Position numbers and translations under genes: made by a program. DNA of 64,000 bases, taken from NCBI RefSeq assembly GCF_000144625.1, contig NC_014376.1, positions 1,178,001 through 1,242,000 of the forward strand. The letters are read 5' to 3'. The notes beneath the pieces were generated by a model. It had not been told where the DNA came from. It saw only the letters and a list, made by a program, of their open reading frames with translations, and ran no database searches. The DNA comes from [Clostridium] saccharolyticum WM1. Its GTDB lineage: Bacteria; Bacillota; Clostridia; Lachnospirales; Lachnospiraceae. This document shows positions 44,790 to 64,000 of this stretch, in pieces; within the stretch, counting starts at the first letter, position 1; each line of letters starts with the position of its first letter.

Positions 44790-46328
44790 TTGAGATTAAC
44801 TCTTTCGGTTCTCGCTTATCATTTATCTGAAAAATATGATAATTTTTTTGAGATATATCAAGCAAATGGTAAAAATTCATTGGATAGGATTTGTTACTTT
44901 GAGGTAGACTGTTCGGAAAATAAATTTTTATATTTCATACTTTATGAAGATTTGAAAAAATGCAAGGTTTTACCACAGACGATTATATGCATCGGAGATG
45001 ATGAAGAAGCGCAAAGTTTTATTATTGAAAAAGGAATCGAAGCGCTTATCTTTCCTAATTGTGTTAATCAGAACCTATTATACCAAGCGGTTAGTGATAT
45101 TTTTTTCGAATACAATACCTATGAACAGGATATTAAAGATGCAATTATCCGGAATGATTCGCTTTCAGCAACGCTCAATATTGTTAGTAGAATATTTGAT
45201 AATCCGGTTTTTATTTGTGATGCTGCTTTACGTTTGCTAGGGGCCAGTGAGAATAGTGTAAACGTATCTGACAGCTTGTGGTTGGACACACTGAATCAAG
45301 GTGTATCAAGTCAGATAGTTATGGATGTAATGCAAAATACAGATCTTATAGATTTGCTTAACACAACAAACCGGGCAATTTATATTGAACAGGAACCAGT
45401 TGCTCCATTCTTCAGTGCAAATTTTATTGAAAACAATAAACGGATTGCAACAATTACAATATCAAGTAGTGAAAAAAAATTAAATCCGAAACTGCTTCCA
45501 GTTGTTGACAGAATTGTTGAATTGTTAATAATTGAAGTAAAAAAGGCCGGGAATGCTTATTACCTACAAGCAACAAACCTTCAAAAGGTTATTCTGGACA
45601 TGCTGGATGGCTTCATGCTCGATGAGAGGGTATTACGACGTAATCTTTTAGCAGTACACTGGAATATGAATGATGAATATCAGCTTATTAAGGTTGAGAT
45701 GAGTGAGGATCATGTTCTTAATGGTACTGCAAAATACGTAGAGCTGACAGCTCATAAACTGTTTCCTGATTCAATTCTTGTTGATTTGCAAGATGCTTTT
45801 CTTCTTGTTGTGCATCGTACAGGTAACCGAAATATAGATTATATTATAAGTAATGCATTTTATGAGTTTCTTAAAATGCAAAAAAGCAAGGCTGGGATCA
45901 GTATGCGCTATTATAGTTTTCCTCTCTCTGCGGATGCGTATAAATTAGCGAGTATTGCCTTGGAAAAAGGAAAGGCTTTATCACATAAAGAGGCACTATA
46001 CCATTATGAGGATTATATCGTTACCCATCTGATTGATATGTGTGCTTTATCAATTAATGTGGTATCGCTTTGCAATCCAGAGGCGACAAAGTTATATCAA
46101 TACGATGTAATTCATAACACTGAATATCTTAAAAGTCTTTATATGTATATTCTTGAAGAAAAGCATATTGCGATAGCTGCAAAAAAACTGAATATCCATC
46201 GGAACACTTTAGTTTATAGACTTGGAAAAGTTTCTGAACTCTGCACGATTGATCTTGACGACAGTAAATCCAGACTACATGTGATATGGTCATATCAAGT
46301 ACTGCAATATCTCAAACCTGAATTTTGA
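44790..46328 (+). CDS. PucR/CdaR-family transcriptional regulator
   Basis: A 512-residue regulator. The N-terminal region is of PucR type, a GGDEF-like middle follows, and the C-terminal helix-turn-helix is of the PucR/HTH_30 type (HIAIAAKKLNIHRNTLVYRL near residues 455-475). The start is TTG 44790 behind AGGGGGGA. Such proteins typically activate nearby catabolic operons in response to a substrate. It is in front of the demethylase and MFS genes, so they are its likely targets. Confidence 0.85.
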   Translation: MRLTLSVLAYHLSEKYDNFFEIYQANGKNSLDRICYFEVDCSENKFLYFILYEDLKKCKVLPQTIICIGDDEEAQSFIIEKGIEALIFPNCVNQNLLYQAVSDIFFEYNTYEQDIKDAIIRNDSLSATLNIVSRIFDNPVFICDAALRLLGASENSVNVSDSLWLDTLNQGVSSQIVMDVMQNTDLIDLLNTTNRAIYIEQEPVAPFFSANFIENNKRIATITISSSEKKLNPKLLPVVDRIVELLIIEVKKAGNAYYLQATNLQKVILDMLDGFMLDERVLRRNLLAVHWNMNDEYQLIKVEMSEDHVLNGTAKYVELTAHKLFPDSILVDLQDAFLLVVHRTGNRNIDYIISNAFYEFLKMQKSKAGISMRYYSFPLSADAYKLASIALEKGKALSHKEALYHYEDYIVTHLIDMCALSINVVSLCNPEATKLYQYDVIHNTEYLKSLYMYILEEKHIAIAAKKLNIHRNTLVYRLGKVSELCTIDLDDSKSRLHVIWSYQVLQYLKPEF

Positions 46329-46377
46329 AATACTTTAAGTGGTCAGTTTATTTATAAAATTAAAAACAGCCGAACCA

Positions 46378-46407
46378 AAAGCCGCCGTGGGATTCCAAGG
46401 CGGCTTT
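46378..46407 (+). terminator. Terminator after the PucR-type gene
   Basis: The stem AAAGCCGCC/GGCGGCTTT (46378-46386 with 46399-46407) is followed by a short T-rich stretch. Confidence 0.7.
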
Positions 46408-46459
46408 CGTTGTGCTGTGCGCACACTTTTGACCTGGTCTGTTTCGTGATACGGATACA

Positions 46460-46488
46460 TTGTTTTAAAGTATGACAGGCAATACAAT
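46460..46488 (+). promoter_or_regulatory. Probable promoter of the demethylase gene
   Basis: TTGTTT (46460-46465), a 17-bp spacer and TACAAT (46483-46488), 57 bases before the start codon. The palindrome TGTGCGCACA lies just upstream (46418-46427) and could bind the PucR-type activator. Confidence 0.5.
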
Positions 46489-46544: not shown

Positions 46545-47903
46545 ATGAGTAATGCGAGACCGGATTTCAATCCCTTAAACGAAGGGGCTTCTTTACTGAT
46601 GGGTAGCGGAGAAATGGGCTATTTTGCTTATACCTACACCGGATGGCGCGATGAAACCGATTCATGGAAAAAAACTGCGTATCTGGGGACGGCCCTGATG
46701 AATTCACCCATTTATGACGTAAAGGGATCTGATGTAGCGAAATTTTTCGGCAGGATTTGTGTGAACAACTTTGATAATTTTAGTATTGGGAGAATCAGGC
46801 ATGCGATTATTTGCAATGAAAAGGGCCAGATTATGACCGATGGAGTTGTGATGAAAATAGCAGAAGATACGTATCGGACATACTGGCTGGCTCCTTGTAT
46901 TGAATTCTTGGTTCAGAAGTTCAAGAGCGAATATGACATTGAGGGCAACGATCTGACGGGTAAGGAATATTTCTTCCAAATCGCGGGCCGACTGTCACTT
47001 GAGGTTATGGAGAAAGCTACCGGTCTGGATTTGAAAGATCTGAAATTTGCACAACACAAAGTGATTCAGATCAATGGCAAAAATGTCCGCATACTGCGTC
47101 TTGGTATGACCGGTAATGTTGCATATGAGATTCATGGTGATATTTCCGAAGCTAAGGAAATATACAATATCGTCTGGAACGCCGGGAAAGATTTAGGTAT
47201 GCGAAAATTGGGCCAGCTCGCCTATTGCATGAATCATACTGAAGGCGGATTCCCTAATATCAACATTCATTATCCGCTTCCCTGGTATGAAAGCGAAGAT
47301 CTCGGGTTTAAGGGATTCTCTGAATTCCTGGGCACGCGTCCCTGGTGGGCATTCTATAATAATAACCGTCTGCTGGTAGGCAGCGTCGGCGATGACCTTC
47401 AGACGCGCTTTGTCACTCCTGTTGATGTTGGTTGGGCTAATCTGGTTAAGTTTGACCATGAATTTACAGGGAAAGAGGCTCTTGTAAAGGCAGTGGCAAA
47501 TCCTGCCCGCACTGTGGTGACCTTGGAATGGAATGCGGACGACATCATGGAAGTTTACGGCTCACAGTTCCGGGGAACTGATGTAGAACCCTATGACTAC
47601 ATAGAGGATCGTCCGAACGATGTGTTCTATTTTGGAGGCGAACGATTTACCTATTTGGCGGATAAGGTTCTGGCAGACGGCAAGACGGTCGGCATCAGTG
47701 TTGGGAGAGGTGTCAGCAACTATTATCGCAGGATGATTTCGATGGCGTTTATCGACCCCAAGTATACCGAGCTCGGAAAAGAGCTCACAGTAGTATGGGG
47801 CGATGTCGGACATCCGCAAAAAGAGATTCGTGCCACAGTAGTGCGTTATCCTTATTTTGATGCAGATCGCAACAACGAGGTTGATGTTTCAACGAGACAT
47901 TAA
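46545..47903 (+). CDS. Tetrahydrofolate-dependent O-demethylase of the LigM/DesA (GcvT-fold) family
   Basis: A 452-residue GcvT-fold protein. It lines up with Sphingobium LigM (vanillate/3-O-methylgallate) and DesA (syringate) demethylases. Shared signatures are WRDETDSWKKTAYLG at the N terminus, a long folate-binding core (GMTGNVAYEIHGD), VDVGWANLVKFDHEFTGKEAL and TLEWNADD near 330. It is longer than GcvT or DmdA and has the LigM-type C terminus. These enzymes move an aryl methyl group to THF, giving 5-methyl-THF, without corrinoid. AAGGAGAG precedes the ATG. Neighbours are a PucR regulator, an MFS carrier and a one-carbon cluster. The substrate is unknown. Confidence 0.75.
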   Translation: MSNARPDFNPLNEGASLLMGSGEMGYFAYTYTGWRDETDSWKKTAYLGTALMNSPIYDVKGSDVAKFFGRICVNNFDNFSIGRIRHAIICNEKGQIMTDGVVMKIAEDTYRTYWLAPCIEFLVQKFKSEYDIEGNDLTGKEYFFQIAGRLSLEVMEKATGLDLKDLKFAQHKVIQINGKNVRILRLGMTGNVAYEIHGDISEAKEIYNIVWNAGKDLGMRKLGQLAYCMNHTEGGFPNINIHYPLPWYESEDLGFKGFSEFLGTRPWWAFYNNNRLLVGSVGDDLQTRFVTPVDVGWANLVKFDHEFTGKEALVKAVANPARTVVTLEWNADDIMEVYGSQFRGTDVEPYDYIEDRPNDVFYFGGERFTYLADKVLADGKTVGISVGRGVSNYYRRMISMAFIDPKYTELGKELTVVWGDVGHPQKEIRATVVRYPYFDADRNNEVDVSTRH

Positions 47904-47920
47904 AACTAATAAATAGAAAG

Positions 47921-48034: not shown

Positions 48035-49249
48035 ATGGCAGAGAAAAAAAATGCTTTTTACCCTTGGATAGTTCTCATCATCATTTGTTTGGGTGGTTTT
48101 ATTCCAAATTATACACAGTATCAGCTCTCACCGCTGGCACCCCAGTTAATTCAGTCATTTAAGCTTTCAACATCAGAATTTGCCAGCATATTTTCTTCTG
48201 TGGCGATACCTGCCATTTTCTTTAGCCTTGTTGCCGGTTTGTTGGTAGATAAATTTGGAATAAAACGGATAATCGGGGTCGGTTTCATCATTGCGGCCAT
48301 CGGAACAGTTTGGCGAATATGGTCTGATAGCTACATAACACTTTTTGCCAGTATGTTGCTTACCGGGTTTGGTATAACGTTCCTCAATGCGAATGCTGCG
48401 AAAGTAGTCGGCAGCTGGTTCCCACCTGAAAAAGTAGGAAGCAGGACAGGAATATTTTTATCTGCTTCAACGCTGGGTATGACAGTCGGAACCGGAACCA
48501 CGGCACTTCTCAGTATTCAGTCTGCATACCGGATTTCAGCTGCTTTGTCGGTAATATTTGTTGTACTCTGGTTTCTTTTTATTAAAAATCCGGAAGATGT
48601 AAACCCGGACGATAGACTGGAAGAAAAAAACAAGGTTAATGTTCTTCACAGCCTGAAAGTGGTACTTAAATCCCGAACTGTATGGCTGACGGGTATTTGC
48701 CTGATGTTCATTTTAGGGTGTAATGTTGTAATAAGCTCGTTTTTGCCTACTGCTCTTGGTCAGAGAGGTTTGGATTCTGTAACAGCTGGTATGTATGCGG
48801 CTTTTGTTACAGGTGGTAGCCTGATTGGGTGCCTGTTTGCCCCTGTACTTTCGGAAAGGGTGGGAAAGAATAGGCCTGTTATGATGTTCTTCGCACTTGT
48901 TTCCGCAGCTGGCACCGCATTTAGCTGGCTTGCGCCGGTTGGTGTTCTTTTAGGGCTTTGTCTGTGTATAACCGGGATTGCATTGGGAGGGCTTATGCCA
49001 TTGCTAATGTCTATTCCTATTCAATTAAAGGAGATAGGCCCGGGTTATGCAGGAACAGCCGGTGGGGTAACTGCTACCTTGCAATTGCTTGGAGCTGTTT
49101 TGATTCCGACTTACATTATAGCTCCAATCGCAGGTCAAAATATGAATTTATTTTTCATTCTTGGGGCTGTTTGTATGTTGTGTGTGTTTCTGTTCGTGTT
49201 CACTTTACCCGAACTTGGCAAAGGCAAGGGGAAGAGAGAAATGGTCTGA
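48035..49249 (+). CDS. MFS transporter, probable substrate importer of the demethylation locus
   Basis: A 404-residue inner-membrane protein with about twelve hydrophobic segments. It has the MFS loop signature LLVDKFGIKRII between helices 2 and 3 and a charged central loop after helix 6 (NPEDVNPDDRLEEKN). It resembles the CynX/NarK and oxalate/formate-antiporter-like groups. AGGAGG precedes the start. Its place between a LigM-type demethylase and an NmrA-like reductase suggests uptake of a methoxylated compound; this is inference. Confidence 0.85.
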   Translation: MAEKKNAFYPWIVLIIICLGGFIPNYTQYQLSPLAPQLIQSFKLSTSEFASIFSSVAIPAIFFSLVAGLLVDKFGIKRIIGVGFIIAAIGTVWRIWSDSYITLFASMLLTGFGITFLNANAAKVVGSWFPPEKVGSRTGIFLSASTLGMTVGTGTTALLSIQSAYRISAALSVIFVVLWFLFIKNPEDVNPDDRLEEKNKVNVLHSLKVVLKSRTVWLTGICLMFILGCNVVISSFLPTALGQRGLDSVTAGMYAAFVTGGSLIGCLFAPVLSERVGKNRPVMMFFALVSAAGTAFSWLAPVGVLLGLCLCITGIALGGLMPLLMSIPIQLKEIGPGYAGTAGGVTATLQLLGAVLIPTYIIAPIAGQNMNLFFILGAVCMLCVFLFVFTLPELGKGKGKREMV

Positions 49250-49308
49250 TGGGTCATTTGTACTTATCGTTACTTTTTTAAAAATATGAATAAGTGGAAA
49301 GGATAGAC

Positions 49309-50250
49309 ATGGGAAAGATTATTATTACAGGAGTAGATGGCAATTTCGGTGGATTTACCGGCAGAAGTATTCTCAAGAAAAAAAATAAGGACGAACTTAT
49401 ATTTACTAGTCCTAACAAAAATGTGATCTCAAAGTTTCAGGAGCAAGGGATTGATGCCCGTTACGCCGATTATACAAATCCGGAGCAACTCATTGGTGCT
49501 TTTGAGGAAGGAGAGACTCTCCTGCTTATTTCGGTGCCTCAGGTAGGTGAAAAAAGAAGAAAAATGCACAAAAATGCAATTGATGCTGCAGTTAAGGCGG
49601 GTGTGAAAAAAATTATATATACTTCTATTGTAGGCGCGGGCGTCCCTGAAAATGATGCTTATGAGATTGCCGATCATAAATTTACCGAGACATATATCCT
49701 TGGTACAGGGCTGAAATATGTTTTACTTAGAAACTCCCAATACAGTGAGGCAATGATTGCGGCTTTTGAACAGGCGGCAGAATCCGACGGTATTTTAAAG
49801 ACCAGTATGGGTGATGGACGGATCGCTCACGTTTCGCGGGACGATTGCGCTGAAGCTGCGGCTTGCGTAGCAGCTGGTGCTGGTAAAGACAACGCAGTTT
49901 ATTACATCACTGGTCCCACCGCCAATACAGTGGAGGAGTTTGTGGCAATAGGTACTGAGGTTACTGGTAAAAAGGTCATATACCAATATATCACAGACGA
50001 AGATATGTGGGCTTTTTTCGATTCAAGGTTTGTGCCCCGGAAGACAGATGGAGACTGGTCGAAAGCTGACCCGGCATTTCCGTTTTGCAGCGATGGTATG
50101 GTGACATTCAGCCGGGCAATTCGGCTTGGACAAATGAGTAACTGTACAAATGATTTTGAAACACTTACGGGTAAAAAACCAAAATCGGTACGTGCGCTCT
50201 TTGAGAATATAGAGAATCATAGCATCGGAAATAGGACTCCGACGGATTAA
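49309..50250 (+). CDS. NmrA-like / atypical SDR NAD(P)H-binding protein
   Basis: A 313-residue Rossmann protein. The N terminus KIIITGVDGNFGGFTG replaces the usual GATGxxG. KIIYTSIVGAG, LRNSQYSE and HVSRDDCAEAAA follow, the pattern of QorB/NmrA-type reductases. ATG 49309 has AAAGGA upstream; 49294 is an alternative. It probably acts on a quinone or unsaturated product or senses redox state. It closes the PucR-demethylase-MFS group. Confidence 0.8.
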   Translation: MGKIIITGVDGNFGGFTGRSILKKKNKDELIFTSPNKNVISKFQEQGIDARYADYTNPEQLIGAFEEGETLLLISVPQVGEKRRKMHKNAIDAAVKAGVKKIIYTSIVGAGVPENDAYEIADHKFTETYILGTGLKYVLLRNSQYSEAMIAAFEQAAESDGILKTSMGDGRIAHVSRDDCAEAAACVAAGAGKDNAVYYITGPTANTVEEFVAIGTEVTGKKVIYQYITDEDMWAFFDSRFVPRKTDGDWSKADPAFPFCSDGMVTFSRAIRLGQMSNCTNDFETLTGKKPKSVRALFENIENHSIGNRTPTD

Positions 50251-50620: not shown

Positions 50621-52645
50621 TTATATCTGATTATCAAAATTCAATATATCTTCACCTAAAATATAATTTATGGTTCCGAGATAATCTCCGTCTTCGTATC
50701 TTGGTATTGTTACGGGTTTTATTTTTATAACCTCTTTATACCATTTCACTGCAATCGGGGAAATAATATATTTTTTGAAATCATTGATGTTTGGTTGATT
50801 ATTTTCCCATATTTTTTCTTTTCTATAAACCTTCGATTCATTCCATATCTTTACATACTGACCATTATCAGAAAAAAACCTAATTAGAACAGATTCATCA
50901 ACAATTCTTATACCATCAATTTCTAGCGATGTAAAACTATCAATATTCGTACAGACCAATTGTATTATTCGCTCTTCTGGATAAGGTTCCGGGGGTAAAA
51001 ATCCCTTTGTTATCTCTCTAATCAGTGTCCAATCGCTTAACAAAACCTGCTTCCTTAGTTCAAGCTGTCTTATGGCTTTTTTTATCTCCTGACGGTCTTC
51101 ATAGTAACGTTTTGGATCGTACGGTGTCACCAAGTGTTTTATTTCAATTATCACAACATAATCATCAAATAAAGCAATAACATCAAAATCCGTATTTCCA
51201 AAAGATGATTTAAATTCTATTTTATCTGTATAGACATTCCACAGGGAAGACTGCGACAACTTTTTTCTTAAATAGGATTCATATTCATCACCAATTGCCG
51301 CCCGCTTTATTTTGTAATCCAACATGATTTGCTCAAGCATTCGGGTTATATTAATCTGTTGAATCAAATTAGGGGCAAATATTACTTTTTTACTACTTAA
51401 TTGAACCAACGGTTTTGAGAATAGATCACCCTCTTTCCCACGCTGCGGATAATAAATAAACCACTCCATTAACCTAGTTGTGGTATTTATGTTCTTGCAA
51501 TATAATCGTGAAAAGCTTTTTATTAGCAAATCAACATCAATATCTGGACATAGATATTTAAATCTTTCGCTTTCAATCTCTTTCCAATTATAATTTAAGA
51601 TGTTTAAATAAATTTGGCTCATAGTAAACAAAAACTCATGTACTTCAAGGAAATCATTCAATTCACCATATGATAACGTTTGTCTTAGATAGGGCGGAAA
51701 GATATCCGTCTGTTTTATAATTTGAATTGTACATTTAGCGGCTAAATTACAACGCAAGTAGACATCCAATTCCAGTTCAAAAATGCCCCTCCATAATTCT
51801 AACTTGATTCGCTTTGCAAGGCGAGTTATAAATTGATTCCCATATATTATATTGTTTTGTTTTCTAATCAATAGAGCACGACTGTTTTGAAATCTTCTAG
51901 CCTCTCTACGTATTCCCGCAATAAAATCAATCATATTAGCTTTATAAGAATAGGGTTCAAAAACTATAATATCTTCATCAGTATCCGTTTTTCTCAATCT
52001 AACACAATAATCTTTATATATATAAAGGGACCATAATCCATTTACTATTTCACAAATATTAGAATGATTTACAAAATCCATAACATCTGGACACTTCAAA
52101 CATTGCTCATATGTTAAATCTTCAGAAGTTTTTTCAAAATTGCTATCATGGTAATATAAGTAAGGAATTAAATAATCTATCAACTCAATTAGATTTTCAC
52201 TATTCTGTGATGTTGAATATCTCATACCAGGATAGATCTCAGATTCTACATTTGCAACTAAATGCCTTATACCTATACTTGGTTTTTTACTATCTGTATT
52301 ATTAAATTCAATACCAAGTTTATGTTGTTCCTCAAATAAAGAAATTAATATTCTCAATTGATAATCCAATGGATAATTCATGAATTCTGTCTTTTCTTTA
52401 GCAGCATTATTTTTTTTCATGTTGCTGTAAATAGCTTCATAAGCAACACCTAACTCAAGCATTATGTCTCGAAACTCCTCTTCATATTCTTCATCAATTG
52501 ACATAATCATCTGTATTAAAGATTCTAAATCTGAATCTTTATAATTATATGAGTTTGGAGAACCTAGAAGATTGCGATACAAAACTATCTTTTTAAATTT
52601 CTCCGGATTTTTTTGATATATGCTGTACAATCCCTTTAAATCCAT
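50621..52645 (-). CDS. Large protein with a C-terminal PD-(D/E)XK nuclease-like domain
   Basis: A 674-residue AT-rich gene. Residues 1 to about 450 are helical with no recognised domain. From about 475 there is a nuclease-like core: GDEYESYLRKKL, then TDFDVIALFDDYVVIIEIKH, giving Asp and ExK as metal ligands, followed by a helix with many charged residues. No membrane segment. AAAGGTGGTG precedes the start. It is a lone gene, opposite in strand to its neighbours and bracketed by inverted repeats, as seen for stand-alone defence nucleases. A defence role is inference. Confidence 0.7.
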   Translation of the reverse strand: MDLKGLYSIYQKNPEKFKKIVLYRNLLGSPNSYNYKDSDLESLIQMIMSIDEEYEEEFRDIMLELGVAYEAIYSNMKKNNAAKEKTEFMNYPLDYQLRILISLFEEQHKLGIEFNNTDSKKPSIGIRHLVANVESEIYPGMRYSTSQNSENLIELIDYLIPYLYYHDSNFEKTSEDLTYEQCLKCPDVMDFVNHSNICEIVNGLWSLYIYKDYCVRLRKTDTDEDIIVFEPYSYKANMIDFIAGIRREARRFQNSRALLIRKQNNIIYGNQFITRLAKRIKLELWRGIFELELDVYLRCNLAAKCTIQIIKQTDIFPPYLRQTLSYGELNDFLEVHEFLFTMSQIYLNILNYNWKEIESERFKYLCPDIDVDLLIKSFSRLYCKNINTTTRLMEWFIYYPQRGKEGDLFSKPLVQLSSKKVIFAPNLIQQINITRMLEQIMLDYKIKRAAIGDEYESYLRKKLSQSSLWNVYTDKIEFKSSFGNTDFDVIALFDDYVVIIEIKHLVTPYDPKRYYEDRQEIKKAIRQLELRKQVLLSDWTLIREITKGFLPPEPYPEERIIQLVCTNIDSFTSLEIDGIRIVDESVLIRFFSDNGQYVKIWNESKVYRKEKIWENNQPNINDFKKYIISPIAVKWYKEVIKIKPVTIPRYEDGDYLGTINYILGEDILNFDNQI

Positions 52646-52845: not shown

Positions 52846-53167
52846 TGTTTTGTGCGGAGCATTCCCGGTATAGATTTGACTTTTGGACACTTCTTTGATT
52901 TTGCTTAATAATTTGAAAAGAAGAGCTATAACTGTAGAGAGATACTGTGTTTGCAGCAGAAGAATGGAAAGATAAAATTTAAGGAATGGGAAGCAGTAAA
53001 TACTCTTCCAGATGTTTTGTGCTGGTAACACAGTTATCGCTCAAACAATTTTGGTTAGCGAAACGATGATTCATGAAAGAAAAAGTAGTATCCTAATAAT
53101 AACAAATAGAAAACTGATTTAGGGAGGGAACGAAGGAATAAAATAGCTTATAACCGCTATGAACAGG
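52846..53167. other. Intergenic region between the nuclease gene and the THF riboswitch
   Basis: About 320 bases with no supported gene; short frames on both strands lack ribosome sites. The promoter of the riboswitch transcript should lie here, but no clear consensus pair is visible. Confidence 0.4.
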
Positions 53168-53288
53168 CAAAGTAGGGCTAAGCGCGTCAAGTGCCAGATG
53201 GACGGGAAGTTGCCGCTGGACGAAAAATTCTGATTAAAAAGATACTTTTGATCATCAATTTATGATGTTTAACCCGCATTCCGTTGCC
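53168..53288 (+). promoter_or_regulatory. THF riboswitch controlling the first folT gene
   Basis: It contains the conserved THF-riboswitch blocks in order: AGTAGG, GCGCGTCAAGTG, GGGAAGTTGCC, a CGAAAA loop, and the 3' block CCGCATTCCGTT that can pair with GGGAA as a pseudoknot. A GCCACA/TGTGGC hairpin (53286-53312) follows, then the GGGAGG ribosome site at 53325. Its lack of a T run points to translational control. The regulated gene is a folate transporter, as expected. Confidence 0.85.
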
Positions 53289-53336: not shown

Positions 53337-53891
53337 ATGTTGAAAAATTTAATATGGCAAGTAAAATCGTCTTTAAAAGAGTTGAATAATGTTCCGACTG
53401 TTTCTGTAACAGGAATGTTGGTCGCACTAAGTGTAGTGCTGTCATTTTTTACGATTGTTATCTCCAATGTATTGCAGATTAGTTTTGGTTTTTTGCCTCT
53501 TGCGGTAGGCGGAATGTTGTTTGGACCTGTAGTAGGAGGTATTATGGGAATTTTGAGCGATATCCTTGGTTATTTTGTCCATCCAAACGGGCCTTTTTTT
53601 CCGGGATTTACATTAAATGCGTTACTTACTGGAACTCTCTATGGTTTTTTTCTCTATAAAAAGCATGTAACCTTAAAGCGTGTGATTTTTGTTTCACTTA
53701 CGATAACACTTCTCGTTAATATGATGCTTAATCCATTATGGCTCAGTATCATGTATGGCAATGCTTTTTTTGTGCTTGTTATCGGGCGTATTGTTAAAAA
53801 CCTGCTGATGTTCCCCATTAATACGGCGTTGCTTTACTCAATCCTGAAACCTATGGAAAGAATTAGAACTCTGGAAAGAGTAAGTGGATGA
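53337..53891 (+). CDS. folT: Folate ECF transporter substrate-binding S component (first copy)
   Basis: A 184-residue membrane protein with about five or six hydrophobic segments. The core GFLPLAVGGMLFGPVVGG and FPGFTLNALLTGTLYG is typical of folate-type S components that work with a shared EcfAA'T module. The ATG at 53337 is chosen because GGGAGG (53325-53330) is correctly spaced. A longer in-frame start at 53262 would begin inside the riboswitch and adds a non-conserved tail. It is homologous to the second copy at 59618. Confidence 0.85.
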   Translation: MLKNLIWQVKSSLKELNNVPTVSVTGMLVALSVVLSFFTIVISNVLQISFGFLPLAVGGMLFGPVVGGIMGILSDILGYFVHPNGPFFPGFTLNALLTGTLYGFFLYKKHVTLKRVIFVSLTITLLVNMMLNPLWLSIMYGNAFFVLVIGRIVKNLLMFPINTALLYSILKPMERIRTLERVSG

Positions 53892-54117: not shown

Positions 54118-54163
54118 TAGTTCTTTGAACAGCTATTAAACTACATTGGAGGAGGAAATTTTC

Positions 54164-54580: not shown

Positions 54581-54582
54581 AT

Positions 54583-55223: not shown

Positions 55224-56894
55224 ATGAAAACAGATGTACAGATTGCACAGGAGGCTAACATGCTTCCGATAGCAGAGGTTGCAAAGAATCTTGGAATTTT
55301 GGAGGATGAACTGGAGCTTTACGGTAAGCATAAGGCAAAGGTTTCTTTGGATGTATTAAAAAGACTTGAAAATAAGCCGGATGCCAAGTTGGTACTTGTT
55401 ACTGCTATCAACCCTACTCCGGCAGGTGAGGGAAAGACCACAACTAATGTTGGTTTATCCATGGGACTTAATAAAATCGGAAAAAAGGCCATTACAGCTC
55501 TCCGGGAGCCGTCGCTGGGACCTTGCTTCGGTGTAAAAGGAGGAGCTGCCGGAGGCGGATATGCTCAGGTTGTACCAATGGATGATATTAATCTTCACTT
55601 TACAGGAGATTTTCATGCTATTACATCCGCGCACAATCTGTTAGCTGCCCTCCTTGATAATCATCTTCATCAGGGAAATGCTCTGCGGATTGACCCTAAA
55701 AAGATCGTGTGGAAAAGAGTCGTGGATATGAATGACAGGTCTCTCAGAAACATCATCGTGGGTCTTGGGGGAAAGGGCGACGGAGTGGTGAGACAAGCCG
55801 GATTCGATATTACAGTTGCATCGGAAATTATGGCAATTCTTTGCTTGGCTACCAGCATGTCTGACTTAAAGGAACGTCTTTCCAGAATGGTAGTAGCTTA
55901 TAATACAGATGGTAACCCAGTCACTGCGGGAGATCTGGAAGCAACAGGAGCTATGGCACTGCTGTTGAAGGATGCAATTAAGCCAAATCTGGTACAGACA
56001 TTGGAGAACACACCTGCGTTTATTCACGGAGGACCCTTTGCCAATATAGCACATGGCTGTAATTCCGTACTTGCAACGAAGGTTGCTTTAAAACTGGCCG
56101 ACTATGTAATAACGGAAGCCGGCTTTGGGGCTGATCTTGGGGCTGAGAAATTCTTTGATATCAAGTGCAGATTCGCAGGGCTGAATCCGGATGCGGTGGT
56201 TATTGTTGCGACAGTAAGAGCTCTAAAAATGAATGGTGGAGTACCGAAGACAGAACTGTCAACTGAAAACCTCAATGCATTGGAAAAGGGAATAGCAAAC
56301 CTGGAGAGACATCTGGAAAACCTTGAGAAATTTGGTGTTTCCGCAGTTGTTGCAATTAATAAATTCCCCGCTGATACAGAAGCGGAATTAGAGTTGCTCA
56401 GAGAGAAATGTGCAGCCAGGGGTGTTGAAGTAATTCTCTCCGATGTATTTGCAAAAGGAGGAGAGGGTGGCATTGCCCTTGCTTCGAAGGTAGTGAAAAT
56501 ATGCGAAACAAAAAAATCAAATTATGCACCCCTTTATGATGTGGATGGCTCTATAGCTGAGAAAATCACAACCATTGCGCAGGAGATATACAGAGCGGAC
56601 GGAGTCGATTTTACGGCTGATGCTAAGAAACAGATTGCAGAGCTTGAAAAACTCAGCTTGGATAAGATGCCGATCTGTATGGCAAAAACCCAGTATTCAT
56701 TCTCGGATAATGCCAATCTGCTGGGAGCACCTATAGGTTTCCGTATCACAGTAAGAGAAGTTAAGGTATCGGCAGGAGCGGGGTTTATAGTGGCTATTAC
56801 CGGCGATATCATGACTATGCCGGGTCTTCCCAAAGTTCCTGCTGCCAATGGTATGGATATTACAGAAGATGGAGTTATTATTGGTTTATCCTAA
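55224..56894 (+). CDS. fhs: Formate-tetrahydrofolate ligase
   Basis: Cytosolic enzyme forming 10-formyl-THF from formate, THF and ATP, reversible with ATP gain. 556 residues, full length. The P-loop PAGEGKTT is at 66-73, followed by [26 protein letters not shown] sequence, DMNDRSLRN, and the C-terminal [18 protein letters not shown] precedes the start. It heads a folD-fchA-FNT-folC series. Placed with a methyl-THF-forming demethylase, it could run towards formate and ATP; in acetogens it runs the other way. Confidence 0.96.
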
Positions 56895-56905: not shown

Positions 56906-57760
56906 ATGGGGACAAGACTAGAAGGAAAGCCAGTCGTTCAGTTTTTAAGAGATGATTTAAAACAACGGGTGGGAAAATTAGCAGAGAAGGGGATTATACC
57001 CACAGTTCTTATTATAAGGGTGGGCGAAAGGGAAGATGATGTATCTTATGAGAGAGGAATATTAAAAAACTGCGAGTTACTGGAAATTAAAAGCAAAGTG
57101 CTACAATTGCCTATTGAAATTGCATTGGACCGGCTTGTGGAAATAATAGAAGCTGCGAACAGGGACATCGATGTCCATGGTATTATGATATTCAGGCCTT
57201 TGCCGGCACATCTTGATCCAGAAGTGCTAAGTAAGACTATAAGCCCTGAAAAAGACATTGACTGTATGTCTCCGGTCAACCTGGAAAAGGTATTTGAAGG
57301 GAATGCAAACGGCTTTGCTCCCTGTACTCCCAAAGCAGTAATCGAGCTTCTAAAATATTATAATATTCCACTCAAAGGCGCCAATGTTGTTGTAGCAGGA
57401 AGAAGCCTGGTGGTAGGAAAGCCCCTTGCAATGCTTCTTCTGGATGAAAATGCTACAGTAACTATCTGTCATTCAAGAACAAAGGAGATGACAGAAATTA
57501 CGGCAAACGCTGATATCGTAGTAGCAGCCATCGGAAAAGCTAAATTCATGTCGGAGAAATATTTTAAACCGGAATCTATTGTGGTTGATGTTGGAATTAA
57601 TGACGCAGGAGATGGAAAGATTTGCGGAGATGTTGATTTTGGCAGCGTTTTTGATAAAGTGACAGCAATTACTCCTGCGGTAGGAGGAATAGGAACTATC
57701 ACAACAACAATTCTCTTAAGTCATGTAGTTATAGCTTGCGAGGAACTAACGAAAGATTAG
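56906..57760 (+). CDS. folD: FolD bifunctional methylene-THF dehydrogenase/methenyl-THF cyclohydrolase
   Basis: Interconverts methylene-, methenyl- and formyl-THF; 284 residues. It has SYERGILKNCE around the catalytic Tyr/Lys, EKDID with the conserved Asp, PCTPKAVIELL, and the Rossmann GRSLVVGKPLAMLL. The usual GILVQLPLP stretch reads GIMIFRPLP, so the conserved Gln is missing. AAGGAGG precedes the start, 11 bases after fhs. A separate cyclohydrolase gene, fchA, follows, so FolD here may mainly serve as dehydrogenase. Confidence 0.9.
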   Translation: MGTRLEGKPVVQFLRDDLKQRVGKLAEKGIIPTVLIIRVGEREDDVSYERGILKNCELLEIKSKVLQLPIEIALDRLVEIIEAANRDIDVHGIMIFRPLPAHLDPEVLSKTISPEKDIDCMSPVNLEKVFEGNANGFAPCTPKAVIELLKYYNIPLKGANVVVAGRSLVVGKPLAMLLLDENATVTICHSRTKEMTEITANADIVVAAIGKAKFMSEKYFKPESIVVDVGINDAGDGKICGDVDFGSVFDKVTAITPAVGGIGTITTTILLSHVVIACEELTKD

Positions 57761-57909: not shown

Positions 57910-58536
57910 ATGCTGGAAAAAAGTTGTAACATATTCATCGAAGAATTATCTTCAAAATCACCGGTTCCAGGTGGCGGTGGTGCGTCGGCATATGTCGGAG
58001 CACTTGGAATGGCTCTTGGTTGCATGGTAGGAAACCTGACTCTTGGTAAGAAAAAATATCAGGAGGTAGAGCCCGATATTATAAAACTATTAGAAAAATC
58101 GGAGAAAATTATTATAGAGTTGAAAGAACTGGTAAGCAAAGATGCCGAAGTTTTTTATCCGCTCTCACAGGCTTATGGGTTGCCACAGAATACAGAAGAA
58201 GAGAAGGCAGAGAAAGAGGCGGTTCTTCAGCATGCATTAATTGCTGCGACTAAGGTTCCACTTGATATTGCAAAAACGTGTTTGGAAGCTATTGAGCTTA
58301 TTGAAGAATATGCGATAAAGGGAACACGTATTGCAGTCAGTGATGCAGGTGTAGGTGCAATATTCTGCAAAGCGGCGCTACAGGGAGCTAAACTAAATGT
58401 TCTTATTAATACTAAGATTATGAAAGATCAGGAATTAAAAAACGTTGTTGAAAGTGAACTGTCTGAAACTGTACGGGCAGGGATGGAAAAGGCAGACCGG
58501 ATTTACCAATATGTAGAGACTTTGTTAAAGTCTTAA
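57910..58536 (+). CDS. fchA: Methenyl-THF cyclohydrolase (FchA, cyclodeaminase family)
   Basis: A 208-residue all-helical protein of the FTCD C-terminal/cyclodeaminase fold. PVPGGGGASAYVGALGMALG (about residues 18-37) is the diagnostic loop, followed by a long helix bundle. In clostridia and acetogens FchA hydrates 5,10-methenyl-THF to 10-formyl-THF. AGAAAG precedes the ATG. It belongs to the fhs-folD series. Confidence 0.9.
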   Translation: MLEKSCNIFIEELSSKSPVPGGGGASAYVGALGMALGCMVGNLTLGKKKYQEVEPDIIKLLEKSEKIIIELKELVSKDAEVFYPLSQAYGLPQNTEEEKAEKEAVLQHALIAATKVPLDIAKTCLEAIELIEEYAIKGTRIAVSDAGVGAIFCKAALQGAKLNVLINTKIMKDQELKNVVESELSETVRAGMEKADRIYQYVETLLKS

Positions 58537-58556: not shown

Positions 58557-59465
58557 ATGAATGGACAAAATTACCTGACATCACCGGAAATTGCGGAAAC
58601 TACCATCCAGACAGCAGTCAAAAAAGCAAAGACACCTGTAATTAATCAGTTACTTCTTGGGATTTTAGCCGGAGCATTTATTGCTTTTGCCTCAGAAGGA
58701 TCAAATATGGCGGCATTCAATCTTTTAGCAAAACCGGAAACCTATGGACTGGGTAAGGTATTGGCTGGCGCAACTTTTGGAACAGGTCTGATGCTGGTGT
58801 TAATTGCAGGAGGGGAACTTTTTACTGGAAACACGATGATGATTGCCGGGGTTCTTGATAAAAAGGTGAAAGTAAAGGATATGCTTAAAAATTGGTGCTT
58901 TGTGTATATCGGAAATTTTATAGGTTCCGTATTCATTGCCTATATGATAAATCATTCAGGACAGCTAAGCAGCGGCTCCAATATGTTAGGTGCAATGACG
59001 ATTAAAATTGCGGCCAATAAGGTCGGATTGTCCTTTTCACAGGCATTTATTCTCGGCATCCTGTGTAATTGGCTGGTTTGTCTTGCAGTTTGGATGGCAT
59101 ATGGCGCCAAAGATATCACAGGAAAAATATTTGCAATATTCTTTCCTATTTGGCTCTTTATAACCTCAGGATTTGAGCACAGTATAGCCAATATGTATTA
59201 CATACCTGCCGGAATTATGGCAAAAAGTAACGGCGCATTGGCTGAGGCTGCCGCACAATTAGGGGTTACGGCAGAAAAACTGGGGCATCTGAACTGGGGA
59301 AGTTTCATTACCAAAAATTTAATACCTGTAACACTTGGAAATATTGTAGGAGGAAGTTTATTTGTTGCCTCCATATATTGGTTCGTCTATATCAGAACCA
59401 ATAAAAAACAGGAAGTGACTGTAGTTTCTGAAGAAAAGACAGCCAATGAATGTACAAATAAATAA
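58557..59465 (+). CDS. Formate/nitrite transporter (FNT) family channel
   Basis: A 302-residue membrane protein with six helices and the two FNT half-repeats: GGELFTGNTMM and, in the second half, GFEHSIANMYYIP with the central His (near 209). Pentameric FNT channels conduct formate or nitrite. Placed between fchA and folT/folC in a one-carbon cluster, formate is the likely solute. AAAGGAG precedes ATG 58557. Confidence 0.9.
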   Translation: MNGQNYLTSPEIAETTIQTAVKKAKTPVINQLLLGILAGAFIAFASEGSNMAAFNLLAKPETYGLGKVLAGATFGTGLMLVLIAGGELFTGNTMMIAGVLDKKVKVKDMLKNWCFVYIGNFIGSVFIAYMINHSGQLSSGSNMLGAMTIKIAANKVGLSFSQAFILGILCNWLVCLAVWMAYGAKDITGKIFAIFFPIWLFITSGFEHSIANMYYIPAGIMAKSNGALAEAAAQLGVTAEKLGHLNWGSFITKNLIPVTLGNIVGGSLFVASIYWFVYIRTNKKQEVTVVSEEKTANECTNK

Positions 59466-59472: not shown

Positions 59473-59571
59473 TGGTTAGAGTAGGGACAGTGCGTTAAGT
59501 ACCGAAGGATGGGAAGTTGTCTTTGGGCGAAAGGCTTGATGCTTGCGGTGCTGTCCCGCATCCGCTACCAC
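59473..59571 (+). promoter_or_regulatory. THF riboswitch controlling the second folT and folC
   Basis: A near-consensus THF riboswitch: AGTAGG, stem GGACAG/CTGTCC, TGCGTTAAGT, GGATGGGAAGTTG, GGGCGAAAGGC and the 3' CGCATCCGCTACC, where CATCC can pair with GGATG. Its end overlaps a hairpin AAAGAAG/CTTCTTT (59574-59590). CTTCTTT can alternatively pair with the AAAGGAG ribosome site (59607-59613), giving a plausible translational switch. Confidence 0.92.
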
Positions 59572-59617: not shown

Positions 59618-60154
59618 ATGAAAAAAATATATAAAGAATGGTTTAAAGAGTACGTTTCTATAGACACACATTCATTGGTTACTATGGGATTATTAATAGC
59701 AATTGAAGTAATCTTGACCCGGTTTGTATCCATACAAGCCTGGAACCTGAGAATAGGCTTTGGATTTTTGCCGATTGCTGTTGCAGGTATGATACTTGGA
59801 CCTGTCAGAGCTGGTATTATGGCTGCTATAGCAGATTTTCTTGGTGCAATATTGTTTCCGTCAGGCACATTTTTTCCTGGGTTTACGTTTACGGCATTAT
59901 TGGTAGGGATTTTATACGGCATTTTCCTTTATAAAAAGATGAATACACGGAGAATAGCCACTGCAATTGGAATCCACCAATGTATTCTGAGCCTGTTTGT
60001 TAATACATTTTGGCTGTCAATTTTATATGGTTCCCCCTACTGGCCTTTATTTACGACTAGAATTGTGCAGACAGTAATTATGCTTTTTGTTGAGGGTATC
60101 TGTCTTGTAGCGGTATGCAATAAGAAAGTAAGCCGGATATTGGCTTTTAAATAG
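59618..60154 (+). CDS. folT: Folate ECF transporter S component (second copy)
   Basis: A 178-residue membrane protein homologous to the first FolT: GFGFLPIAVAGMILGPVRAG, FFPGFTFTALLVGILYG, then FVNTFWLSILYG. AAAGGAG at 59607-59613 precedes the ATG. It sits 13 bases before folC, linking uptake with polyglutamylation, and a THF riboswitch lies directly upstream. Confidence 0.88.
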   Translation: MKKIYKEWFKEYVSIDTHSLVTMGLLIAIEVILTRFVSIQAWNLRIGFGFLPIAVAGMILGPVRAGIMAAIADFLGAILFPSGTFFPGFTFTALLVGILYGIFLYKKMNTRRIATAIGIHQCILSLFVNTFWLSILYGSPYWPLFTTRIVQTVIMLFVEGICLVAVCNKKVSRILAFK

Positions 60155-60166: not shown

Positions 60167-61438
60167 ATGGACATCACGGAAGCTATAGAATATATAAATC
60201 AAACAGCATGGCAGGGAAGCAGGCTGGGACTTGAGAGAATGGAAATTCTGCTTGGGTTGATTTGGAACCCCGAAAGAAAGTTAAAATATATCCATATTGC
60301 AGGAACAAACGGCAAAGGTTCCACAGCGGCTATGCTTGCCTCTGTTTTGACTGAAGCAGGATATAAAACAGGACTGTATACCTCACCCTATATACAATGC
60401 TTTAATGAAAGAATCCAAATCAACGGGATTAATATACCGGATGATAAGATAATTGAAGCAGTGGAGCATATAAGAGGATTTGTTGACCAAATGGAGGACA
60501 AGCCAACAGAATTTGAACTTATAACAGTGATTGCATTTCTCTATTTCTATCAATGTCAGTGTGATATTGTGGTTCTTGAAGTAGGCATGGGAGGGAGACT
60601 GGATTCTACCAATATTATACCGGTACCTGAGGTTGCAGTGATTACTGCTATTGACTTAGACCATACCAGGGAACTGGGAAATACGGTTGAAAAAATAGCC
60701 GGAGAAAAAGCAGGTATCATAAAGAATGGTTGTGACGTGGTTCTTTATCAGCAAAGGCAGTCGGTTTTTGAGGTGATAGAATCCGTATGCAGTGATAAAT
60801 CAGCCCGGTTACATCCTGTGGATTTTAATTATATTGAGATTATCTGCAGTGATTTAAACGGACAATGCCTGAATTTTGAAGATTTCCACGATATTAAAAT
60901 AAGCCTGTTAGGAGAATATCAGCAAAAAAACACAGCAGTTGCACTGAAGACACTGGAAATATTGATTAAAAAAGGATGGAATTTTACGGTAAGAGGTATT
61001 AAGGAAGGTATGAAGAAAGCAAAATGGCCCGGCCGTTTTGAGGTTCTTACCAGAAAACCGTATTTTATTGTAGATGGTGCCCATAACCCCAACGGTGTCC
61101 GGGCAATGGCGGATAATATTAACGCATACTTTAAGGACAGGAAAATCATTTTTTTGGTCGGAGTCCTTAAGGATAAAGACTATGAAGCAATGATGAGGCT
61201 GATTATGCCCTATGGGAGCAAATTTATTGTTGTACAACCTGAGAATTCAAGAGCACTTTCCCAAGGTGAACTGGCTGATTACTTAAGAAATAATAGTAAT
61301 GCAGATGTATCAGAAGCAGATAATGTGGAGACTGGAATTAAGACGGCCTTAAATCTGGCAAGAGAAGATGAAGTGATTATTGCCTTCGGTTCACTCTATA
61401 TGGTAGGAAGCATAAGAAATTTTTTTTTACAGGATTGA
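60167..61438 (+). CDS. folC: Folylpolyglutamate/dihydrofolate synthase
   Basis: Mur-ligase-family enzyme adding glutamate to folates, which traps them in the cell; 423 residues. ATP-binding GTNGKGST is at 46-53, followed by LYTSPY, VGMGGRLDSTN, GEKAGIIK and DGAHNPNGV. GCAGGAGGT precedes ATG 60167. It is cotranscribed with the riboswitch-controlled folT, so folate status controls both. Confidence 0.94.
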   Translation: MDITEAIEYINQTAWQGSRLGLERMEILLGLIWNPERKLKYIHIAGTNGKGSTAAMLASVLTEAGYKTGLYTSPYIQCFNERIQINGINIPDDKIIEAVEHIRGFVDQMEDKPTEFELITVIAFLYFYQCQCDIVVLEVGMGGRLDSTNIIPVPEVAVITAIDLDHTRELGNTVEKIAGEKAGIIKNGCDVVLYQQRQSVFEVIESVCSDKSARLHPVDFNYIEIICSDLNGQCLNFEDFHDIKISLLGEYQQKNTAVALKTLEILIKKGWNFTVRGIKEGMKKAKWPGRFEVLTRKPYFIVDGAHNPNGVRAMADNINAYFKDRKIIFLVGVLKDKDYEAMMRLIMPYGSKFIVVQPENSRALSQGELADYLRNNSNADVSEADNVETGIKTALNLAREDEVIIAFGSLYMVGSIRNFFLQD

Positions 61439-61454
61439 TTTAATTAAATGTATG

Positions 61455-61502: not shown

Positions 61503-61544
61503 ACCGGTACCTTCCGGGAGTACCCGATGTTAGAGGAGGAAGAT

Positions 61545-63191
61545 ATGGAAGAGATTATATATATAACAGGCCATAAAAATCCGGACACTGATTCCATATG
61601 TTCAGCGATTGCTTATGCCGAGCTGAAGAAAAAGCTCGGAACTAAGGCAGTTCCCATAAGAATCGGAGATATCAATAAAGAAACGGAGTTTGTATTAAGG
61701 TATTTTAATATCGAAGCACCGGAATATCTTGAAACGGTACGGACTCAGGTATCAGACTTAAGCATGGATATTGTACATCCGGTGTCCGAGGATATTTCCA
61801 TAAAGGTGGCGTGGGGAATCATGCAGAAAAACAATGTCAAGGTTCTTCCTGTTGTAGGTGAGAAAGAAGAGCTGCTTGGAATTGTAACACTTTCGGATAT
61901 AACAAAAAGCTATATGAATGCACTGGAAAATAATGTTCTCTCAGCAAGTAATACTCCTCTAAAAAACATCGTAGAAACATTAAATGCAAAGCTTTTGCAC
62001 GGAAAGGACGAGGACTTCAAGAATTCGGGAAAGGTTGTTATTGCAGCCATGTTGCCGGAAAGTCTGGAGCCTTATATTGAAACCGGAGATATGGTGCTTG
62101 TGGGAAACAGGAAAGACAGCCAGATGAAAGCAATTGAACTGGGAGCCAGCTGCATTATTGTTTCCTGTGGAGGACAGATTGATAACGAAGTCCTTGTGCT
62201 GGCCGAAAAATCCCATTGTATTGTAATGGAAACAAATTATGACACCTTTACCGCAGCAAGATTGATTAATCAAAGCATTCCGGTCGGCTTTATCATGACT
62301 AAGAAAGAGCTTACTTATTTTAATATAAAAGATTTCACCGATTCAGTGAAGGAAAAAATGCTTAAAACCAGATACCGGAGTTATCCGGTGGTGGATGAAT
62401 GTAACCGAATGATGGGGTTTATTTCAAGATATCACCTCATCTCACAGAGAAGAAAAAAGATCGTATTGCTGGATCATAATGAAAAGACACAGACTGTGGA
62501 TGGGATAGAGCAGGCTGAAATTATTGAAATTATTGACCACCACAGAATAGGAGATATACAGACGTCAAATCCTGTTCTGTTTAAAAACGAGCCACTGGGA
62601 AGTACCTCAACCATAATAGCTAATATGTATTTTGAAAACGGAATGAAACCGGCAAAAGGTATCGCAGGAATTCTATGTGCCGCCATCCTGTCGGATACGA
62701 TGAAATTCAAATCCCCCACAAGTACTTTTGTGGATCAGATCACAGCTTCAAAACTTGCTGCCATTGCGGACATTGACATTGATGAATTAGCCGTTGGATT
62801 GTTCCAGGCGGCATCCTCATTAAAGGACATGAGTCCGGAAGCGATTCTGAAAAATGATTTTAAGGAATACCAGTTTGATAAATACAAAGTAGGAATCGGG
62901 CAGTTCAATACCAACGATATGGAGGGATTTTCTGATATTAAAGCGATGCTACTTGAAAGTATGGAAGTACTTAGGAAAGAAGGGCGATATAATTTAATTG
63001 TTCTCATGATCACAGATATGATGAGAGAGGGTTCACAGCTGCTTTTTAAAGGTCATGATAACCAGTTGATGGAGAAAGCATTTTCAACTGAGTCTGATAC
63101 CGACAGTATCTATTTAAAAAATGTAGTCTCAAGAAAGAAACAGATACTGCCTGCCATTGCAAATGCTGCTGAAGTGGCGAGTAATCTGTAG
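61545..63191 (+). CDS. ppaC: Family II manganese-dependent inorganic pyrophosphatase with CBS-DRTGG regulatory insert
   Basis: A 548-residue DHH-family pyrophosphatase. N-terminal metal site GHKNPDTDS (residues 9-17) is followed by CBS domains around a DRTGG domain (about 70-310), then IIDHHRIGD and the DHHA2 part. The insert makes these enzymes respond to adenine nucleotides. ATG 61545 follows AGGAGG (61534-61539). ATG 61527 is possible, but any start at 61452 would lie inside the terminator. Confidence 0.92.
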   Translation: MEEIIYITGHKNPDTDSICSAIAYAELKKKLGTKAVPIRIGDINKETEFVLRYFNIEAPEYLETVRTQVSDLSMDIVHPVSEDISIKVAWGIMQKNNVKVLPVVGEKEELLGIVTLSDITKSYMNALENNVLSASNTPLKNIVETLNAKLLHGKDEDFKNSGKVVIAAMLPESLEPYIETGDMVLVGNRKDSQMKAIELGASCIIVSCGGQIDNEVLVLAEKSHCIVMETNYDTFTAARLINQSIPVGFIMTKKELTYFNIKDFTDSVKEKMLKTRYRSYPVVDECNRMMGFISRYHLISQRRKKIVLLDHNEKTQTVDGIEQAEIIEIIDHHRIGDIQTSNPVLFKNEPLGSTSTIIANMYFENGMKPAKGIAGILCAAILSDTMKFKSPTSTFVDQITASKLAAIADIDIDELAVGLFQAASSLKDMSPEAILKNDFKEYQFDKYKVGIGQFNTNDMEGFSDIKAMLLESMEVLRKEGRYNLIVLMITDMMREGSQLLFKGHDNQLMEKAFSTESDTDSIYLKNVVSRKKQILPAIANAAEVASNL

Positions 63192-63259
63192 TCCTTATAA
63201 AGCTTGTGTATAAACGCAGATAAAAATAGAGTAGAACATGTACAGGAAAGGAGCTAATT

Positions 63260-64000
63260 ATGTATCGAATCACAAGAAAAAAGGCCTTGAATCCAACTGT
63301 TACTTTAATGGAAATAGAGGCACCCATGCTGGCGAAGAAAGCAGAACCCGGTCAATTTATCATCCTGCGAACAGATGAAAACGGGGAAAGAATTCCTCTC
63401 ACGATTGCAGATTTTGACCGGATAAAAGGTACAATAACAATTATTTACCAGGTGGTTGGTGCAACAACGGAAAAACTGAATCATATGGAGGAAGGAGACT
63501 CTCTCCAGGATTTTGTCGGTCCTCTGGGACGAGCAACGAATACGGAAGGTAAAAAGAAAGTTGCAGTCGTAGGCGGTGGTGTGGGATGTGCCATAGCCTA
63601 TCCAGTGGTAAAGAAGTTTTTTGAACAGGGGACTGAAGTGCATGCAATCATAGGCTTCCGGAATAAGGAACTTGTTATTCTGGAGGAAGAATTCAGGGCA
63701 AATAGCAGTAAGCTGATTTTGATGTCGGACGACGGCAGCTGTGGTGAAAAGGGACTGGTTACCGATGCCTTGAAAAAGTTAATTGAAAGCGGAGAAGAAT
63801 ATGATGAGGTTATCACCATCGGACCTTTGATCATGATGAAATTTGTATGCAAATTAACGAAGGAATATGGAATTAAAACAGTAGCAAGCATGAATCCGAT
63901 TATGGTGGATGGCACGGGAATGTGCGGAGGATGCCGTCTTACGGTTGGAGGAACCACCAAATTTGCTTGCGTGGACGGACCTGAATTTGATGGTCATGAG
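63260..64000 (+). CDS. NfnA-like NADH-dependent ferredoxin:NADP oxidoreductase subunit, cut by the window end
   Basis: The first 247 residues of a PyrK/NfnA-type protein. An FAD-binding beta barrel (GQFIILRTDENGERIPLTI) is followed by the NAD-binding VAVVGGGVGCAIAYPV and the C-terminal [2Fe-2S] cysteines in GTGMCGGCRLTV ... FACVDG. AAAGGAG precedes ATG 63260. In clostridia the partner (NfnB/GltA-like) usually follows directly. NfnAB couples NADH, NADPH and ferredoxin pools, which fits a one-carbon oxidation or fixation locus. Confidence 0.88.
   Translation, partial: MYRITRKKALNPTVTLMEIEAPMLAKKAEPGQFIILRTDENGERIPLTIADFDRIKGTITIIYQVVGATTEKLNHMEEGDSLQDFVGPLGRATNTEGKKKVAVVGGGVGCAIAYPVVKKFFEQGTEVHAIIGFRNKELVILEEEFRANSSKLILMSDDGSCGEKGLVTDALKKLIESGEEYDEVITIGPLIMMKFVCKLTKEYGIKTVASMNPIMVDGTGMCGGCRLTVGGTTKFACVDGPEFDGHE

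Follow-up and report, generated by a model that had tools for sequence, protein, structure and literature searches.

A candidate corrinoid-free, SesA-type demethylenase module beside tetrahydrofolate one-carbon genes in Lacrimispora saccharolytica WM1

Anaerobic ether cleavage that feeds carbon to tetrahydrofolate (THF) is carried out in acetogens by corrinoid O-demethylase systems made up of four proteins, and the part of a 2026 gut paper available to us (PMC12915777) states that the O-demethylases characterised in acetogens and methanogens are for the most part, if not without exception, corrinoid-dependent. LigM and DesA of Sphingobium SYK-6 belong to the GcvT-type fold family, use THF as acceptor and also lie near one-carbon genes; their donor group is a methyl group and they need MetF, metF and ligH being used in pathways of this type according to an excerpt of PMC9296663. 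SesA of Sinomonas sp. no. 22, in contrast, acts on sesamin as a methylene transferase, and its product is given in the consulted section of PMC9560768 as 5,10-methylene-THF. The BrdA berberine demethylenases also open a methylenedioxy ring in a THF-dependent manner; according to PMC5547118 they were obtained from aerobically cultured isolates of Rhodococcus, Sphingobium, Arthrobacter and Burkholderia, are about 27% identical to SesA and share one clan with it in a tree. Judging by its title, PMC10284823 describes an anaerobe, Acetobacterium, engineered for homoformatogenesis, in which one-carbon groups are oxidised with formate as end product, although in a laboratory acetogen mutant and from other methyl donors. 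Here we describe a locus related to these systems in a 64,000-nucleotide stretch of the genome of Lacrimispora (Clostridium) saccharolytica WM1 (C1:1178001–1242000 of a single contig of 4,662,871 bases; hereafter the window), in which the gene for a GcvT-fold enzyme (46545–47903, plus strand) is found near THF one-carbon genes. This organism is an anaerobic fermenter. Proteins of the window were profiled with Pfam and NCBIfam, and RNA elements with Rfam.

A search with the 46545–47903 protein, which matches GCV_T at 112.6 bits, gave 769 homologues, and the statements that follow rest on the best 120. One named, characterised enzyme is among them, SesA (P0111), which is 51% identical over 97% (489 bits); many of the others bear the label glycine cleavage T, and P0069 has the pipeline label vanillate/3-O-methylgallate O-demethylase. 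Solved LigM chains matched at 133 bits. The protein scored 218 bits against the NCBIfam DesA model (cut-off 800) and 192 bits against the LigM model (cut-off 580), while the GcvT, SoxA and DmdA models scored it lower still, the GcvT cut-offs being missed by PRK00389 (72.6 of 300 bits) and TIGR00528 (41.9 of 235.85 bits). On these weaker profile scores we rejected identity as a GcvT, sarcosine or dimethylsulfoniopropionate enzyme.

A quick 106-row tree placed the enzyme within a 56-row set that includes SesA, with a Shimodaira–Hasegawa-like approximate likelihood-ratio (SH-aLRT) support of 100, and LigM lay far outside. A second tree, of 88 rows, was made by removing 22 rows (near copies, long branches and others) and adding three DesA-like and one SesA-like Novosphingobium rows; it placed six window-type rows together with SesA apart from five LigM/DesA-like rows, again with a support of 100. 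Both trees were quick, with SH-aLRT supports and without bootstrap, and they left out BrdA and the full SYK-6 DesA. Constraining the six window-type rows to group with the five LigM/DesA-like rows gave a result 49.7 log units worse (p 0.011 in the approximately unbiased (AU) test), for groups that were named only after the first tree had been seen. It should be noted that the DesA-like rows scored 552, 534 and 415 bits, all below the DesA cut-off, and they are therefore to be taken as relatives and not as proven DesA.

The residues of the enzyme agree with this placement. Eight SesA residues are expected to donate protons or to bind THF according to the available text of PMC5547118; seven of these are identical in the enzyme and the eighth, R100, corresponds to K104. 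At H86 and H231, histidine is conserved in 82 of 83 rows once the four LigM/DesA reference rows, which have Q and T/S/S/G there, respectively, are set aside. The remaining row, L069_12597, duplicates a DesA-like one, and both SesA histidines are absent from all five LigM/DesA-like rows. A first-pass annotation of the window had labelled the enzyme as a LigM/DesA-type O-demethylase with a methoxyl donor. On profile scores, tree and residues we rejected that label, and the methoxyl donor is not supported: the enzyme stands in a separate clade, and SesA, the nearest characterised enzyme, transfers a methylene group as far as the sources at hand describe it. Nor did the enzyme group firmly with GcvT or sarcosine enzymes, the other placement that the annotation had envisaged; it groups with SesA. 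We conclude from sequence comparison that the enzyme is SesA-type and not a LigM/DesA O-demethylase, and it would be expected to depend on THF.

Around this gene are three others on the plus strand. Upstream is a gene for a PucR-type transcriptional regulator (44790–46328; HTH_30, 51 bits, at the C-terminus, with no other part matched), and downstream are genes for an MFS carrier predicted to take up aromatics (48035–49249; MFS_1, 160 bits) and an NmrA-like NAD(P)H reductase (49294–50250; NmrA and NAD_binding_10 matches). The reductase is possibly a quinone reductase for a catechol product, its closest solved chains being YtfG and triphenylmethane reductase. We rejected a plant-type lignan (pinoresinol) reductase for this gene, as none of the ten solved sequences matched at E≤0.1 is named lignan reductase; they are YtfG, triphenylmethane reductase and other NmrA-like proteins.

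The one-carbon genes, likewise on the plus strand, begin with a THF riboswitch (53166–53288; RF01831, 70.4 bits, gathering threshold 36) 5′ of the first of two genes for FolT-family ECF folate transporter S components (53337–53891; TIGR04518, 136.7 bits, cut-off 60). The called open reading frame (ORF) begins at 53262, and the start is probably the in-frame ATG at 53337, behind the gene's own riboswitch. Further along are a second formate–THF ligase, Fhs (55224–56894; FTHFS, 925 bits), the methylene-THF dehydrogenase/cyclohydrolase FolD (56906–57760; Pfam matches of 191.8 and 95.8 bits, with NCBIfam FolD models matching below their own cut-offs), an FchA-like methenyl-THF cyclohydrolase (57910–58536; FTCD_C, 222.8 bits; NCBIfam FchA, 203 bits, cut-off 275) and a FocA-like channel of the FNT family, predicted to export formate (58557–59465). 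This channel passed the FNT subfamily cut-off (TIGR00790, 262.9 bits, cut-off 232.3) and missed that of the FocA equivalog model (263.2 bits, cut-off 290.1), so that formate is likely, but not certain, as its ion. A second THF riboswitch (59475–59569; RF01831, 74.5 bits) precedes the second FolT gene (59618–60154; TIGR04518, 171.7 bits, cut-off 60), which is followed by a second, folylpolyglutamate synthase-like FolC (60167–61438; TIGR01499, 400.7 bits, cut-off 162.65).

At the edge of the window is an NfnA-like gene (63260–64000, plus strand), and an NfnB-like gene follows it. The models name the pair as a sulfide/dihydroorotate dehydrogenase-like protein and an NADPH-dependent glutamate synthase, and we take them to be Nfn. 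All of the PucR, GcvT-fold, MFS, NmrA, Fhs, FolD, FchA, FNT, FolT and FolC genes reported by the first-pass annotation were recovered where it had put them. It had described a cluster on one strand, which is accurate for the named genes, but a minus-strand gene for a 674-residue protein (50621–52645) divides the two halves. Also recovered was the NfnA-like gene, which extends beyond the window to 64093, and an NfnB-like gene, anticipated past 64000, is indeed present. The annotation had made no mention of the two THF riboswitches or of the genes for nucleoside diphosphate kinase, a glyoxalase-fold protein and an Mn-pyrophosphatase.

With somewhat better than even confidence, we propose that the cluster is an accessory, corrinoid-free SesA-type demethylenase module that would convert an aryl methylenedioxy bridge to formate, NADPH and ATP. 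A plant aromatic would be sensed by the PucR-type regulator and imported by the MFS protein, and the SesA-type enzyme would pass the methylene carbon of the bridge to THF, giving a catechol and 5,10-methylene-THF. FolD would oxidise the latter to methenyl-THF, which would be hydrated to 10-formyl-THF by FolD or FchA, and the second Fhs, running in reverse, would yield formate, THF and ATP, with formate leaving through the FNT channel. NADPH from FolD would be handed on by NfnAB, and the two FolT genes with their THF riboswitches, together with the additional FolC, would supply polyglutamylated folate. The core of this scheme, which the first-pass annotation had also put forward, is a THF-dependent, corrinoid-free one-carbon transfer feeding FolD, FchA and Fhs, with ATP from Fhs and the FNT channel, and it is supported by homology, context and the same block in other phyla. 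What the sequences show directly are the identities of the genes, the kinship to SesA with its retained residues, the additional gene copies and the recurrence of the neighbourhoods; the substrate class, flux direction, regulation, ATP gain and roles of the MFS and NmrA proteins are inferred.

The scheme also bears on the lack of metF, which the annotation had seen as a gap in the chain. Pfam and NCBIfam profiles detected no metF in the window, and the single copy in the genome lies elsewhere, adjoining a metH-like gene; the possibility, raised at the time, that the genome has no metF at all therefore falls away. Because SesA yields 5,10-methylene-THF, a direct FolD substrate, metF would be unnecessary, which explains its absence from the window and closes the gap. 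Unlike the acetogen systems, the genome showed no dedicated corrinoid protein of the O-demethylase type in a B12-binding_2 search (PF02310 was not searched genome-wide), the single match being inside an 818-residue MetH-like protein beside metF. No CdhC/ACS domain was found in the genome.

We then looked at the neighbourhoods of SesA-like genes in a genome collection, using the loci of the best 80 of 233 relatives (1,338,210 bases in all, many loci being partial). In GC-rich relatives, antisense ORFs displaced real genes from the ORF lists, as was noticed when DesA-like genes were missing from the first tree, and presence was counted by tblastn or six-frame searches. PucR-like genes (19–35% identity) were present in 32 of the 80 loci, 29 of them within 3 kb of the SesA-like gene, and MFS relatives in 18, all within this distance; corresponding figures were 18 and 11 for FolD, 13 and 12 for NmrA-like genes, 6 and 3 for Fhs, 5 and 2 for FchA, 5 and 0 for FNT, and 4 and 0 for FolC. 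Fhs, FchA, FolD and FNT occurred together in five loci from three lineages, namely Treponema (L012), two Tractidigestivibacter and ‘bacterium OL-1’ (L033, L036 and L037, where the set is 5–9 kb from the SesA-like gene) and Clostridia MS499-83 (L044). The last of these has in addition a 97-residue SesA-like piece just upstream of its 437-residue SesA-like gene, a 5-formyl-THF cyclo-ligase and a THF riboswitch ahead of a FolT-like gene; the other six of the seven loci scanned gave no Rfam match. In Acetobacterium wieringae (L070) Fhs lies 189 bases from the SesA-like gene, and in Blautia sp. MSJ-9 (L060) the order is PucR (reversed), SesA, MFS and NmrA, with no Fhs in the stretch examined.

Some of these loci show further features. 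At least two SesA-family genes of different subfamilies are present in 23 of the 80 (for example L012, L038, L052 and L068), and may serve several substrates. Old-yellow-enzyme-like genes (Oxidored_FMN with Pyr_redox) lie near SesA-like genes in Tractidigestivibacter (L036, 14483–17341) and Acetobacterium (L070, 5102–7168), and their products could act on aromatic side chains. A gene for an SDR-family dehydrogenase is found upstream of the PucR gene in the window (42906–43682, plus strand), and 10 of the 80 loci have an SDR gene no more than 3 kb from a SesA-like gene; SDRs are common generally.

The cluster is accessory in this genome. Seven of 25 genus genomes had matches to the enzyme, full-length in this genome only, the other six being 25–26% identical over residues 58–237 in ORFs of 361–374 residues; in the family, 5 of 397 sampled genomes, this one included, matched at 1e-60. 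Other copies were found in the genome of Fhs (C1:2290263, 67% identical to the window Fhs), FolC (C1:1650256, 35%), the Mn-pyrophosphatase encoded next to FolC (C1:99538, 44%) and the NfnB-like gene (63%), and the FNT gene matched only itself, partial matches to it in other members of the genus not exceeding 44%. A second Fhs was seen in one other of the 25 genus genomes. This copy, in the species coded G018, is an Fhs ortholog of 83% identity that lies by LarA-like and nickel-insertion genes (locus L167, C9:1292000–1311999, at 12686–14356 on the minus strand). Measured in 4-kb bins, G+C content was 34–43% between 40 and 88 kb (twelve bins) and 44–50% in the ten bins before.

Several observations weigh against the proposed module. 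The clade of the enzyme has one characterised member, SesA, and 51% identity to it fixes no substrate: according to PMC5547118, the BrdA enzymes belong to that demethylenase clan and yet leave sesamin uncleaved. The SesA family may use several donors, as 23 of the 80 loci hold at least two members. A distance of 5 kb and a gene on the opposite strand separate the SesA half from the one-carbon half, and Fhs is near a SesA-like gene in only six of the 80 loci. In G018 the second Fhs stands by lactate-racemase-type genes in a genome without a full-length SesA relative. A second FolC type is present in four other genus genomes (46–51%) and in one more at 38%, and the extra NfnB copy is not special since several genus genomes hold second NfnB-like matches. 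Finally, the comparison of extra copies covered Fhs, FolC, the pyrophosphatase, NfnB and FNT, and left out FolD, FchA, FolT and nucleoside diphosphate kinase (NDK).

A potential explanation that retains a methoxyl donor is that the enzyme passes a methyl group to THF, and that the resulting 5-methyl-THF is either oxidised towards formate by the distant MetF or used for methionine by MetH. The enzyme does share a superfamily with LigM and DesA, D99, E195 and Y227 are common to it and the LigM/DesA-like rows, metF is present in the genome, and the donors of other family members are not established. However, its scores are far under the DesA and LigM cut-offs, and the tree and AU test separate it from the LigM/DesA-like rows. 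Moreover, metF was found in none of the 80 related loci by phmmer and a two-sequence profile, for which the control cross-detects distant MetF (a preceding tblastn scan was weak, its control recovering each query's own locus only), whereas it lies about 1.1 kb from the gene at one of three DesA-like Novosphingobium loci inspected. We consider this explanation unlikely.

We regard it as less probable again that the two halves are unrelated neighbours, a SesA-type detoxification set having come to lie beside a folate/formate block for purine, glycine or formate metabolism. The same one-carbon genes recur near SesA-like genes in Treponema, Tractidigestivibacter/OL-1 and Clostridia MS499-83, as does Fhs in A. 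wieringae, and by our own estimate of one Fhs per 4-Mb genome about 0.3 would be expected in 1.34 Mb, against six loci observed. What speaks for chance adjacency is the gap with its opposite-strand gene, the SesA-free second Fhs of G018, the second FolC type of other genomes and the Blautia order without Fhs. Another formaldehyde-level donor, such as the aminomethyl or N-methyl compounds used by GcvT or sarcosine enzymes, would be compatible with the shared GCV_T domain; it is hard to square with the kinship to SesA, with GcvT, SoxA and DmdA scores below those of the DesA and LigM models, and with the genome's separate GcvT-like gene, which is only 26% alike over residues 59–237, and we give it very little weight. 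The SesA-type demethylenase module thus remains the explanation that we favour.

Other genes of the window have looser ties to the cluster, or none. The 674-residue protein that separates the two halves has no confident family: a NERD match was sub-threshold (20.7 bits, cut-off 22.1), NCBIfam and PADLOC gave no match, and no solved relative was better than E 0.09; the stretch around its gene has 30–34% G+C. NDK (54146–54580, plus strand; 158.6 bits) lies between the first FolT gene and Fhs, and its link to the module is uncertain, as is the part played by the CBS/DRTGG Mn-pyrophosphatase (61545–63191, plus strand; NF011441, 872 bits, cut-off 753). The called ORF of the latter begins at 61452 and homology begins at residue 32, and translation probably starts about 31 codons into that ORF, past a terminator-like hairpin. 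A glyoxalase-fold gene is also present. Left of the cluster, a phage-type integrase gene (18051–19283, minus strand) adjoins a class II tRNA synthetase gene (D/K/N family, lysyl-like by model position), and after it come genes for a RecD2-like helicase, a PcfJ-like protein, an NAD-dependent DNA ligase and an MreB/ParM-like actin with a 141-residue neighbour (21574–23868, 28938–31142, 31739–33757 and 36465–37804 being listed with this stretch), which together look like an integrated mobile element. We rejected the cluster as cargo of this element: the window has no tRNA gene, and no attachment repeat was found, with only 15-base and 14-base exact repeats between 17.4–18.06 kb and the next 146 kb.

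SesA homologues in other bacteria are reportedly mentioned in the SesA paper. No SesA-type gene named in an anaerobe was found in the literature searched, as far as its available text goes. The idea of an anaerobic SesA is not wholly new, since a table in the review PMC9560768, in the portion at hand, enters ‘SesA’ against ‘human gut microbes’, with reference to a feeding study of 2005, for the conversion of sesamin to enterolactone by gut microbes. Unlike SesA of Sinomonas sp. no. 22, the window enzyme is linked to Fhs, FchA, FNT, FolT, FolC and NfnAB genes in a fermenter. The cluster offers a candidate anaerobe gene for methylenedioxy opening, together with gut and acetogen relatives, and it warns that the labels LigM/DesA or glycine cleavage T can mask different chemistry. 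More tentatively, and with rather less than even confidence, we suggest that anaerobes of at least three phyla have SesA-type enzymes wired to FolD, FchA, Fhs and FNT, which would give formate, NADPH and ATP from each bridge without the Wood–Ljungdahl pathway, and that gut relatives (Blautia, Tractidigestivibacter) may likewise open dietary lignans, piperine-like compounds or methylenedioxy drugs. For L. saccharolytica, the module would be a candidate one-carbon route to substrate-level ATP that needs neither a corrinoid nor acetyl-CoA synthase.

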